Of a DNA stretch of 64,000 nucleotides, positions 59,167 through 64,000 are shown piece by piece. A program made the position numbers and the translations under genes. The stretch's first letter is position 1. The number at the start of each line of letters is the position of its first letter. A model generated the notes under the pieces. That model saw only the letters and a program-made list of their open reading frames with translations, did not search any database and was not told the DNA's origin. The stretch covers positions 124,001 to 188,000 of the forward strand of contig NZ_AZWQ01000019.1 of NCBI RefSeq assembly GCF_000514815.1, written 5' to 3'. The DNA comes from Salinispora fenicalii. GTDB lineage: Bacteria > Actinomycetota > Actinomycetes > Mycobacteriales > Micromonosporaceae.

Positions 59167-60276
59167 GTGCGAGACAAGGTGACGGCGGCCCGGCTGGTGG
59201 TCGTCAAGATCGGCTCTTCCTCGTTGACCACGGCCGCTGGCGGCCTGGATGACGGGCGGGTGGACGCGCTCGTGGACACCCTCGGCGCTCTCGCCGCCCA
59301 AGGCCGGGAGGTCGTGCTGGTCTCCTCCGGCGCGATCGCCGCGGGGTTGGCCCCACTGGGGTTGACCCGCCGCCCCCGGGACCTGGCCACCCAGCAGGCC
59401 GCCGCCAGCGTTGGCCAGGGGCTGCTGATCCGGCGCTACGCCGCCGCCTTCGCCCGGCACCAACGCGCCGTCGGTCAGGTCCTGCTCACCGTGGACGACC
59501 TGACCCGGCGGGTGCACTACCGCAACGCGTACCGGACCCTGCGCAAGCTACTTGACCTGGGAGCGGTGCCGATCGTCAACGAGAATGACACGGTCGCCAC
59601 CGAGGAGATCCGGTTCGGCGACAACGACCGGCTCGCCGCCCTGGTGGCCGCCCTGGTCGACGCCGATCTACTCCTTCTGCTCTCTGATGTGGACGCGCTC
59701 TGGACCGGGGATCCGGCCCGCCCCGGATCGACCCGGATCGCCGAGGTCCACGACGAGCGGGACCTGTCCGGGGTGGCGATCGGTGGCGCCGGCCGGGCCG
59801 GGGTCGGCACCGGGGGCATGGTGACCAAGGTGGAGGCAGCCCGGATCGCCACCGGTTTCGGCATCCCGGTGGTCCTGACCTCCGCCGACCAAGCGCCCGA
59901 GGCGCTGGACGGCAAGCCGGTCGGCACGCTCTTTCACCCCGGTCAACGCCGGCCGGCTGCCCGGTTGTTCTGGCTGGCGCACGCCACCACACCGCGTGGC
60001 CGGCTGCAGCTTGACCCGGGCGCGGTCGCGGCCGTTGTCGACCGGCGCAAGTCACTGCTACCCGCGGGGATCACCGCGGTGCGGGGCGCCTTCACCGCCG
60101 GCGATCCGGTTGACCTGGTCGACGCCGACGGCGTGCCGGTGGCCCGCGGGCTGGTCAACTATGACGCGGTGGAGCTGCCTGGCCTGCTCGGACGCTCCAC
60201 CGCTGAGCTCGCCACGGCCCTCGGCCCCGGCTACGAACGGGAGGTCGTCCACTGCGACGACCTGGTGCTGTTGTGA
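59167..60276 (+). CDS. proB: Glutamate 5-kinase
   Basis: 369 aa from GTG 59167; upstream 37 codons in frame overlap the divergent ATL gene and are rejected. Kinase motifs [39 protein letters not shown] and [12 protein letters not shown], then a C-terminal PUA domain (about residues 275-369). First step of proline synthesis, feeding proA. Confidence 0.96.
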
Positions 60277-60328
60277 GGCCGGGGCGCTGTCCCGGCACGA
60301 GTCCTTCCCCCGATCCCAAGGAGCGCAG

Positions 60329-61570
60329 ATGAGCATCGTCGAGCAGGCACGACGAGCCCGGACGGCGGCGGCCGAGTTGGCCCTCGCCACGCGGGCGGGC
60401 AAGGATGCCGCGCTGCACGTGATGGCTGACGCGCTGGTGGCGCGGACCGCCGAGATCCTGGCCGCCAACAGCGCGGACCTTGCCGCCGGACGTGCCGGTG
60501 GGCTGAGTACGGCCATCTTGGACCGGCTCGCCCTCGACTCGGGGCGGGTGGCCGACATCGCCGACGCGCTCCGCCAGATGGCCGCACTCCCCGACCCGAT
60601 CGGCGAGGTGGTCCGGGGGTCGACCCTCCCCAATGGCCTACAGCTGCGGCAGATTCGGGTGCCGTTCGGGGTGGTGGGGATCGTCTACGAGGCACGACCC
60701 AATGTCACCGTTGACGCGGCCGGCATCTGCCTGAAATCTGGCAACGCGGTACTGCTGCGGGGCTCCTCCTCCGCCGCCCGGTCGAACGCCGCGCTGGTCT
60801 CGGTGCTGCGCGACGCGATCATCGACGCCGGCCTGCCAGCGGACTCGGTACAGCTCCTCGACGCCACGACCCGCGATTCGGTCAAGGAGCTGATGCGCGC
60901 CCGGGGCCTGGTGGACGTCCTGATCCCGCGCGGCGGTGCGGACCTGATCCGCACGGTTGTCGAGGAGTCAACCGTCCCGGTGATCGAGACCGGGGTAGGC
61001 AACTGTCACGTCTACGTTGACGCCGCCGCGGACGTGGAGAAGGCGGTCGCGATCGCCCTGAACGCGAAGACGCAGCGCCTCTCCACCTGCAACACGGCCG
61101 AGTCGCTGCTGGTGCACACCGCGGTCGCGGACGCCTTTCTGCCCCCGGCGCTGGCCGCGTTCGCCGCGGCCGGGGTGACCGTCCACGGCTGCCCGCAGGT
61201 CGCTCGATACTCCACAGCCGTGCTGCCGGCGACCGACGAGGACTACGCCACCGAGTACCTGGCGGCGGAGATCTCGGTTGCCGTCGTCGAGTCGCTGGAC
61301 GCGGCGGTCGCGCACATCCAGCGGTACGGGACGGGCCACACCGAGGCGATCGTGACCGACTCCCAGTCGGCTGCCCGCGAGTTCGTGGCCCGGGTTGACG
61401 CGGCGGCGGTGATGGTGAACGCCTCCACCCGGTTCACCGACGGCGGGGAGTTCGGCTTCGGTGCTGAGATCGGCATCTCCACCCAGAAGCTGCACGCCCG
61501 CGGGCCGATGGGGTTGCCGGAGCTGACCAGCACGAAGTACGTCGTGACCGGCGACGGCCAACTACGCTGA
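60329..61570 (+). CDS. proA: Glutamate-5-semialdehyde dehydrogenase (gamma-glutamyl phosphate reductase)
   Basis: 413 aa from ATG 60329 (AAGGAGCG upstream). NADPH-binding [17 protein letters not shown], catalytic Cys in [17 protein letters not shown]; ends [15 protein letters not shown]. Second step of proline synthesis. 52 bp after proB, so one operon. The IS5-type element begins 70 bp downstream. Confidence 0.96.
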
Positions 61571-61694
61571 CTGCCGCCGGACCGGGCCGGTGTCCCGGTG
61601 CCGAGATCTGGGCAGGGCAGCGCTGGGACCACGCCCAAGCTAGGGCGTGTTTCAAAAGTTGCACCGCTGCCTGCGATCTTCGGCTGGAGAGTTT

Positions 61695-62201
61695 TCAGGG
61701 TTGGGTGGTGTTGCCGAGCCGGTGGCGGACTGTCACCGACAGGTCCTCGGCCCAGGCAAGGCGGTGTTCGCCGACTCCGTCGGCGGTGACGGCGCGTAGC
61801 CGGGTTAGGGTGAGCATCGCCTCGTCAGCGTCGAGGTCGCAGGCGCGTAGCAGCGCGTAGGTGAACATGCCGGTGCGATGTATGCCGGCGGAGCAGTGTA
61901 TGACCACTCTGGCGCCGTTGCGGATGTCGTTGGCCAGCGTCGTCAGAGCGGTGACGATCTCGTGGTGGCGTGGGGGTGGTGGTTGTTGACCGTTGGCGAG
62001 TTCGACCCAGATCCACTCCAACCCGGCCGCTTTGGCCGCGGATCCGATCGCGAGGGCGCCCTCACGCCTGGATAGCAGCGTGACTAGGTGTGTTGCGCCC
62101 GCGATTCTCATTACCGGCAGTAGCTTGACCTTCGGCCGGTGCATGACCGCGAGAGCGCCTTCAGCGATACTGACGAATTCGATGCCCGGCGCCTGGGTCA
62201 T
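61695..62201 (-). CDS. Protein tyrosine/dual-specificity phosphatase
   Basis: 168 aa. Active-site loop VIHCSAGIHRTGMFTYAL (HCxxGxxRTG) with catalytic Cys and Arg; a general-acid Asp is not certain. Two upstream beta-strands: GATHLVTLLSRREGALAIG and LEWIWVELANGQQPPPPRHH. Soluble. It lies 30 bp inside the left IS end and is not a usual IS gene, so appears to be a passenger. No SD obvious at ATG 62201. Confidence 0.85.
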   Translation of the reverse strand: MTQAPGIEFVSIAEGALAVMHRPKVKLLPVMRIAGATHLVTLLSRREGALAIGSAAKAAGLEWIWVELANGQQPPPPRHHEIVTALTTLANDIRNGARVVIHCSAGIHRTGMFTYALLRACDLDADEAMLTLTRLRAVTADGVGEHRLAWAEDLSVTVRHRLGNTTQP

Positions 62202-62289
62202 GACGGCAGATGATAGAAACGCATACCCGCCCAGCCAAGGGGTTTTCGTGGCCCGGAGCCGGTCCTTCGAGCGTTTGGTGAGATCAGAG

Positions 62290-62872
62290 CTATTCGTTGA
62301 TCGCGGCTATGGTGACGGTGGCCTCATACCGGACGGCGAGCGTGTCGTACCTGGTCGACACCGCGCGGTGGCGCTTGAGCCGGTTGATGCCGCACTCCAC
62401 CGCGTGCCTCTGCTGGTAGATCTCCTTGTCGAAGGTGGGCGGCCGACCACCGGCGGGGCCCTTGTTACGCCGGTGAGCGGCCCGGTCGTCCTTGATGGGG
62501 ATGGTGGCCTTGATACCTCGCCGACACAGTAGGGCACGGTTGGCCTTCGAACTGTAGGCCTTATCTGACAGCACCCGGTCCGGGCAGGTGCGGGGACGTC
62601 CCCGACCCGGCCGGGGTACCCGGATACCGGCCATTGAAATTCCGCTTCCGGGTGCCGTCACGCTGCCAATGCCGGAACAGCCCATACACCGTCTACCAGG
62701 GCCCGTACCGGGCCGGCACATCGCGCCATGGCGCGCCCGTACGAGTGCGCCACCGAATCCCGTCAACGAGCTGCCGCTTGGTCCACACCGGCGGGCGACC
62801 CGACTTCTTCCCCTTGGGCAGCAACGACTCCAGCCTGGCCCACTGCCGATTGGAAAGATCACCACGACCCAC
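62290..62872 (-). pseudogene. IS5-family transposase with internal deletion and stop
   Basis: From GTG 62872, [20 protein letters not shown], then [20 protein letters not shown] and ARYGPW are followed by an in-frame TAG where the family has Gln. The middle of the DDE domain is absent; the C-terminal part reads in another frame from about 62590 ([37 protein letters not shown]). Only about 580 bp against the usual 800 or more. Confidence 0.85.
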
Positions 62873-62917
62873 GCCGGCAGCGTCTCACAGATCGTCAGCA
62901 CAACTTATGAAACACGC

Positions 62918-62952
62918 GCTAGGTGCTAGGCGCTAGGCGCTAGGCGGCAGGC
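62918..62952. repeat. 7-bp tandem repeat at the IS right end
   Basis: GCTAGGT, then GCTAGGC three times, then GGCAGGC (62918-62952). The element's terminal CTAG falls in the first unit, and the stop of the next gene in the second. Confidence 0.85.
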
Positions 62953-63762
62953 GCGGATCGCGGTCAGCGTCGCGTGGATATCGAACTGGTGCCCGTCCTC
63001 GCTCTCCCAGCCCCCATCGCTGCGCTGGGTCTCGGCGAGTCGGCGGCGAGCGCGCACCAGGACCCGGTCCTGCGGGTCCACGCCGACCCGGCGCAGCGTC
63101 GCGGCCAGCCAGGCGACATTGGCCGGGGTCATATCGCCGATCCGCTCGGTGAGTGCCACCTGGATCCGGGCGGACTCCTGGTGCATCTCCTGCCGGAACA
63201 GCACCGCCGCGCTCAGCCAACCAGCGGCGAGGAATGACGGCCAGGTCCCGTCCGGGCCCAACCGGGCCGCGAGGGAAAGCGCGGCGCCGTGCACGACACC
63301 CGCGTACGCACCGCCGACCCGGGCGTCCAACGGCCCGGCCGCCCGGGCATCCAGGCCGGCGACGCTGAGCCAGAACGCCGCGCTCGCCGTCAGGTAGAAA
63401 CTCGCCTCCGGGTCACCCGGCCGGGCCCACTCGGGGGCGGTGTCGGCCAGCGCGGCGTCCTCTTCCCAGCCCCCCTCCGGTAGCTGGCGCGCGGCGAGCC
63501 AGTCCAGCGCCCGCCGAGCCGACGACCGGCCGAGGCCACCGAGGTCGTCGAGCTCGCCGAGGCGGAAGCAGGTCGCGTCAACGGAGGCGGTCTCCCCCTC
63601 GACGTAGGCCGGCCAACCGCCCTCCGGCAGCTGCCCGGTCTCGGCGACCGCAAACACCTCCTCAGCCGGCGGGGTGCCGGTGCGCAGTCGGGCAAGCCGG
63701 GCCCGCTCCACCACGTCTCCCCGCGCCACCACGTAGCCGATCGCGGCCTCGATATCCACCAC
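62926..63762 (-). CDS. Prenyltransferase/squalene-cyclase-like QW-repeat protein
   Basis: 278 aa from GTG 63762 (GTG 63759 or 63771 also possible; AGGTAG upstream). Three QW motifs: QLPEGGWPAY, RQLPEGGWEE and TQRSDGGWES, each a repeat of the alpha-barrel fold. The DxDD acid of squalene-hopene cyclase is not seen, so catalysis is doubtful. Conserved neighbour of moeZ in related genomes is my recollection, not tested. The C-terminus LAPSA-stop lies in the 7-bp repeats. Confidence 0.82.
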   Translation of the reverse strand: MVDIEAAIGYVVARGDVVERARLARLRTGTPPAEEVFAVAETGQLPEGGWPAYVEGETASVDATCFRLGELDDLGGLGRSSARRALDWLAARQLPEGGWEEDAALADTAPEWARPGDPEASFYLTASAAFWLSVAGLDARAAGPLDARVGGAYAGVVHGAALSLAARLGPDGTWPSFLAAGWLSAAVLFRQEMHQESARIQVALTERIGDMTPANVAWLAATLRRVGVDPQDRVLVRARRRLAETQRSDGGWESEDGHQFDIHATLTAIRACRLAPSA

Positions 63763-63879
63763 GGCGGTCACGCTACCTGGGCAGATGCGATCCCGCTCCA
63801 GGGAATCGGCCGCCCGGCGCCCGGTGCTCGCCGCAACGTCGAGCACCGGGGCGTCCCACGCTGACCAGCCCTGGCCCGA

Positions 63880-64000
63880 TCAGTACGCGGGCAGCGACGG
63901 GTCGACCTGTTTGATCCAAGAGAGGACACCTCCCTGGAGGTGCACCGCGTCCCGGAAGCCAGCGGATTTCAGCGCGGCGAGCGCCTCCGCGGACCGGACG
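63880..64000 (-). CDS. moeZ: C-terminus of MoeZ (adenylyltransferase/sulfurtransferase), partial
   Basis: Minus frame at the right edge: VRSAEALAALKSAGFRDAVH then LQGGVLSWIKQVDPSLPAY and TGA (63880). This is the end of the rhodanese domain of actinobacterial MoeZ/MoeB-R proteins, which activate ubiquitin-like sulfur carriers for molybdopterin, thiamin and cysteine synthesis. Only 39 residues are in the window. Confidence 0.85.
   Translation of the reverse strand, partial: VRSAEALAALKSAGFRDAVHLQGGVLSWIKQVDPSLPAY

Follow-up and report, generated by a model that had tools for sequence, protein, structure and literature searches.

Positions 61640 to 62922 of the window, by which we mean the whole 64,000-nucleotide stretch of Salinispora fenicalii DNA analysed, most probably hold an IS5-family derivative that targets CTAG, carries a passenger gene and is non-autonomous, a reading to which we give a probability of about 0.75. 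The 1283-bp unit has two 18-bp ends, identical at 16 of the 18 positions and each flanked by CTAG, and encloses an open phosphatase gene together with a broken transposase (Table 1), as an earlier note on this DNA had claimed. A segment of about 0.62 kb, with the probably horizontally acquired phosphatase gene, separates the left end's inner edge from the 3' end of the transposase gene, and the whole is still a single unit with one end on either side. Any transposase that acts on the outer ends would carry the phosphatase along with the rest.

Table 1. Features of the element (window positions) and of the small ORF carried by related elements (positions within each locus)
Feature	Position	Strand	Comment
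Left flanking CTAG	61640-61643	.	target; duplicated as TA or CTAG
Left terminal inverted repeat GGCGTGTTTCAAAAGTTG	61644-61661	+	
Passenger cysteine phosphatase of PTP/DSP fold, 168 aa	61695-62201	-	HCSAGIHRTG
Promoter-like pair TTGGCT-17-TATCAT	62210-62238	-	consensus match only
IS5-family transposase, C-terminal remnant	62290-62637	-	
IS5-family transposase, N-terminal remnant (DUF4096)	62642-62881	-	other frame
Right terminal inverted repeat CGCGTGTTTCATAAGTTG	62901-62918	-	minus-strand reading
Right flanking CTAG	62919-62922	.	
103-109-aa ORF	L190:3579-3887, L202:2641-2949, L248:1279-1587, L249:1235-1543, L227:2568-2894		directly downstream of transposase

With the flanking CTAG included, the left end (61640-61661, CTAGGGCGTGTTTCAAAAGTTG) and the reverse complement of 62901-62922 (CTAGCGCGTGTTTCATAAGTTG) were identical at 20 of 22 positions, and they formed the single pair of 22-mers reaching at least 20/22 within positions 60001-64000. 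In Markov shuffles, CTAG-led end pairs arose in none of 200 and pairs of any kind in none of 12. Searching the element's own genome with the end pattern returned exact matches at the element's two ends only; with up to three mismatches the pattern gave eight matches and its reversed control also gave eight, so the six matches outside the element are background. The two ends are of one IS type, which is also found paired in relatives, and an origin of the ends in different IS families is ruled out. The CTAG on both sides fits either a 4-bp duplication or a 2-bp duplication of TA within a CTAG target. Some relatives (for example L206, L223 and L251) have CTAA to the left of the element and TTAG to its right, which favours TA over the 4-bp duplication.

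We compared the insertion site with 29 congeneric loci, 18 of which match both flanks and 11 of which lack a match to the proA-side flank query; the region of the downstream gene was matched in all 160 congeneric genomes. An empty site downstream of proA had been proposed as a check in the earlier note, and such sites exist: the interval from proA to the next gene is 1375 bp in the window and between -4 and 155 bp in 17 of the 18 two-flank loci, so that 17 of the 29 loci (at most 155 bp) hold no element there. The flank of L064 (the G084 locus) reads ...GGGACCACGCCCAAGCTGGGCGGTCAACGGCAGG..., that of the window ...CCCAAGCTAG[element]CTAG..., and this comparison shows that both outer ends of the element abut ancestral flank; L064 has CTGG where the window element has its left CTAG, and L065, L066 and L068 agree in outline with this empty site. 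The insert was also absent from G174, the closest relative at the site (93% over the downstream region), which makes the insertion recent by the time scale of these species. At L086 the interval is 529 bp, exceeding that of each of the 17 other loci measured, and another insertion may have occurred there at the same site. Four CTAG units at 7-bp spacing (62917-62947) adjoin the right end of the window element. The downstream gene (62926-63846, minus strand) loses its native stop to them, and its product ends ...ACRLAPSA* in the window and ...ACR* in relatives such as L064.

These comparisons bear on whether a resident phosphatase gene might by chance have come to lie between a remnant IS and a solo end unrelated to it. 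False pairs can arise from solo ends and neighbouring copies, as in L173, where ends pair over 3731 bp although the native end is present. However, both outer edges of the window element lie against ancestral flank at the same point, so the ends and the gene entered together or one inside the other, and as far as empty sites go the chance arrangement is already refuted. The gene itself matched only its own genome among 160 congeneric genomes at E ≤ 1e-6, and its absence from the other 159 means that it is not a conserved syntenic neighbour; conserved synteny in relatives without the IS ends would, according to the earlier note, have refuted the reading. We therefore regard a fortuitous pairing as very improbable.

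The phosphatase was also sought outside the genus. An order-wide sample contained it in three of 397 genomes at E ≤ 1e-8, namely its own and two remote matches (38% and 34%), and a phylum-wide sample in two of 396, its own and one at 30%. A collection scan with patterns that included IHCSAGIH yielded 30 relatives, the three closest of which, at 66-68% identity, came from Wenjunlia, Virgisporangium and a Streptosporangiaceae MAG. Within about 3 kb on each side of these three (L032, L033 and L034), no such end was found at up to three mismatches, which counts against the preferred reading. No relatives were found in phages, nor in viral contigs by a pattern-based search, a plasmid search gave a single remote match (27.9%), and a PADLOC scan reported nothing for the phosphatase.

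The open reading frame is intact and, as the earlier note had proposed, encodes a predicted phosphatase: Y_phosphatase3 (29.2 bits, cut-off 22.2) and Y_phosphatase (24.2 bits, cut-off 20.9) were both above their Pfam cut-offs, and DSPc, at 24.9 bits, was below its cut-off of 33.5. The product combines the CX5R signature (HCSAGIHR) with a PTP fold; its structure model (pLDDT 94.2, pTM 0.90) matched known PTP/DSP folds with Z scores of 16.9 for Tk-PTP, 16.6 for KAP and 16.6 for a Sulfolobus PTP. In PRL-type enzymes an Asp acts as general acid in the loop that corresponds to position 71. This position is Asn in the predicted phosphatase and varies across the family alignment A1, and a general-acid Asp is not evident from the sequence. 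Outside the IHCSAGIH motif, E47, W63, R136 and T139 are invariant in A1; invariance of the motif itself is partly built in, since IHCSAGIH was among the scan patterns. The family-invariant residues are kept in the window protein. Comparison of the gene with its three nearest relatives gives dN/dS values of 0.30-0.40, and its GC3 is 78%, whereas the flanking genes have 90% and 89%. The promoter-like pair stands just upstream of the phosphatase start (0.2 expected in shuffles), and this consensus match suggests that the gene may be expressed on its own.

The transposase, in contrast to the open phosphatase frame, is disrupted. Read on the minus strand, the N-terminal piece comes first, followed by the C-terminal piece and then the phosphatase gene. 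The two transposase pieces lie in different frames, and 287 alignment columns are absent between them relative to five IS relatives; these features identify an IS derivative rather than an autonomous IS and uphold the description of the transposase as gutted. DUF4096 scored 68.0 bits (cut-off 34.3) and NCBIfam transpos_IS5_3 61 and 69.6 bits, each piece alone falling below the whole-protein cut-off of 110. The pieces belong to an IS5-type DDE transposase, and the short inverted ends and the target duplication agree with this. On its 5' side the window element is without the leader of about 100 bp that precedes the transposase in the five aligned relatives. By transposase similarity L226 and L143 were nearest to the window's, and the transposase tree placed it beside L143 (87% SH-aLRT, not starred, on a long end branch). 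Membership in the short-leader group of L190 and L227 was ruled out by this similarity and by the tree.

No intact helper or IS copy was found in the element's own genome (a draft of 39 contigs, 99.97% complete) by searches with DNA, the end pattern or transposase protein, and at E ≤ 1e-4 only the two remnants matched the group's transposase; intact transposases of the group are present in relatives elsewhere. The element is present as a single copy in its own genome and was found in no other genome searched, a result that weighs against the preferred reading. The proposal in the earlier note of a non-autonomous IS unit carrying a phosphatase is thus still the best reading, but its intact partner was not found in this genome, and mobilisation by an intact copy elsewhere is unsupported today. 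Since the element's own transposase is dead and only remnants occur in the genome, either the helper is now absent or the transposase died after arrival. We infer that the whole element came in together, mobilised in trans by a helper now lost.

We then set the element against its IS group in the host's family, the Micromonosporaceae. The group's end pattern (up to two mismatches) occurred in 47 of 330 genomes, compared with two of 330 for the reversed control. From 169 regions collected, 159 plus L001 were scanned, giving 157 transposase clusters, 63 with a matching end pair and none with any of three control motifs. The remaining 94 lacked an end pair at the threshold used, some being truncated, at contig ends or divergent-ended; L162 and L163, elements of 1064 bp, were paired only at a looser setting. 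Ordinary end-paired elements measured 936-1061 bp, and their end followed the transposase by 15-36 bp. That distance is 647 bp in the window element, where the phosphatase intervenes, and none of the ordinary end-paired relatives contained a comparable segment. Loci were picked by similarity to the window transposase or ends, and this bias means that no frequency can be read from the sample. A MITE-like stretch of 169 bp (L138:243-411) has the same type of end and no room for a transposase.

Extra DNA was present in 14 end-paired elements, the window element included, after removal of L153 and L173 (nearer native end) and L145 (nested transposase); the 1202-bp pair of L173 was scored passenger-free because of its native end. 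Five elements in four genomes (L190, L202, L227, L248 and L249) carry an ORF of 103-109 aa. No Pfam hit was obtained for it in the three tested, and its assignment as an Imm1-type immunity protein was rejected on that ground. It appears weakly constrained, with dN/dS of about 0.6-0.8 against 0.05-0.13 for its transposase. L226 (4243-5912) holds a SUKH-1 (SMI1/KNR4) gene and an intact 297-aa transposase inside one end pair. The passenger of L247 is a HAD hydrolase, beside a broken transposase, and that of L155 a methyltransferase with a partial match to mads_2 in the PADLOC scan, in an element with the weakest ends (13/18) and a broken transposase frame. L297-L300 contain about 375 extra bp with a short ORF only, and L331 (3003-4607) a small ORF between nested ends. 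A GNAT acetyltransferase in L153 (2330-4058) is a candidate passenger; two ends of this IS type bound it, a weak one close by and a better one further away.

Two genomes hold repeated copies of such elements: G195 has two identical 1336-bp copies and G914 four identical 1428-bp copies, at different sites and each beside CTAG, demonstrating that those elements moved with their extra DNA. Outside these genomes each passenger element is known from a single copy. The transposase tree, built with a quick method, had 54 rows, 48 of them different, made up of the 14 passenger-bearing elements and 40 others; nine of the 63 end-paired clusters were left off, namely L145, L153 and seven near copies (L177, L208, L252, L307, L310, L315 and L316). 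On this tree carriage requires at least six changes, of which starred branches force three. The mean with shuffled labels was 12.4, so that carriage is also clustered. That the passengers have no relation to one another likewise argues for repeated capture, and the IS group repeatedly carries unrelated passengers.

How the gene came to be enclosed can be considered in the light of these relatives. An ordinary IS might have inserted downstream of proA and the phosphatase recombined in later, never having travelled on the ends; the single known copy and the lack of the joined unit in a second genome searched would suit such a history. However, the segment adjoins the left end's inner edge and has left that end intact, the lack of the whole insert in G174 leaves little time for two events, and other members of the group have moved with extra DNA. 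We consider this two-step origin unlikely. Arrival of the element as a single unit is compatible with a different route, in which a second, outer end, contributed by a neighbouring IS copy, took the place of the native end and thereby enclosed the gene. L331 resembles such an arrangement, its outer end and leader nearly repeating the inner end that adjoins the transposase, with a gene between, and it may be a snapshot of gene capture; L153 likewise shows a weak end nested within a better one further out. The window element retains no recognisable inner end: the best candidate there matched 11 of 22 positions, a score reached in 33% of shuffles. Under the single-unit reading the original inner end would have been replaced or bypassed when the gene was enclosed, and we see skipping of the native end as a real possibility, at slightly less than even odds.

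More tentatively, and with the odds somewhat against it, the IS5 group of this family could be a recurrent one-gene shuttle, in which a distant end is tolerated or used by the transposase and single genes of about 0.3-0.7 kb are enclosed, moved and kept after transposase death. Its passengers would be the phosphatase, the SUKH-1 protein, the HAD hydrolase, the methyltransferase and the small ORFs, and cassettes like the window element would remain once the transposase dies. Insertion sequences are usually treated as carrying little besides a transposase. A group of this kind, moving at least some of its passengers in units of 1.3-1.4 kb, would give a simple, testable route for the spread of small accessory genes in actinobacteria, with no need for plasmids or composite transposons. 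Elements of this sort readily escape notice, since an annotated genome would list an isolated phosphatase next to part of a transposase. The window element alone is a modest find, its interest being raised by the recurrent carriage of passengers, and the nested ends of L331 make the capture step accessible to experiment.

Open-licence literature yielded nothing on an insertion sequence with a passenger gene and a tyrosine phosphatase, or on one with a passenger gene in Micromonospora; subscription papers and ISfinder lie outside this search, and IS5-family passenger elements may therefore already be reported. The window element shares with the IS5 family its DUF4096 and DDE transposase pieces, short ends, CTAG/TA target and relatives of about 1.04 kb, and belongs to a group that we take to be IS427-like. 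It differs in its length of 1283 bp, its passenger, the missing middle of the transposase and the missing leader. The IS231/IS4 case is an example of a mobile insertion cassette. Such cassettes, a term used in PMC3129680, resemble the window element in having IS ends around a passenger and no working transposase, and they are movable in trans, as the window element would be; the window element keeps a transposase remnant of about 0.6 kb and IS5-type ends, and a cognate transposase acting in trans was not found in its own genome. In transporter insertion sequences (tIS), as described in PMC9330008 and PMC3129680, IS ends hold passenger genes unrelated to transposition, and the phosphatase gene likewise lies inside both ends. 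By that description L226, L190, L202, L248, L249 and L297-L300, with full-length transposases, fit the tIS, whereas the window element has a broken transposase and a tyrosine-phosphatase-fold enzyme as its passenger. Passenger-bearing insertion sequences are thus already known, and by analogy the window element would work like a cassette derived from an IS5-family tIS.
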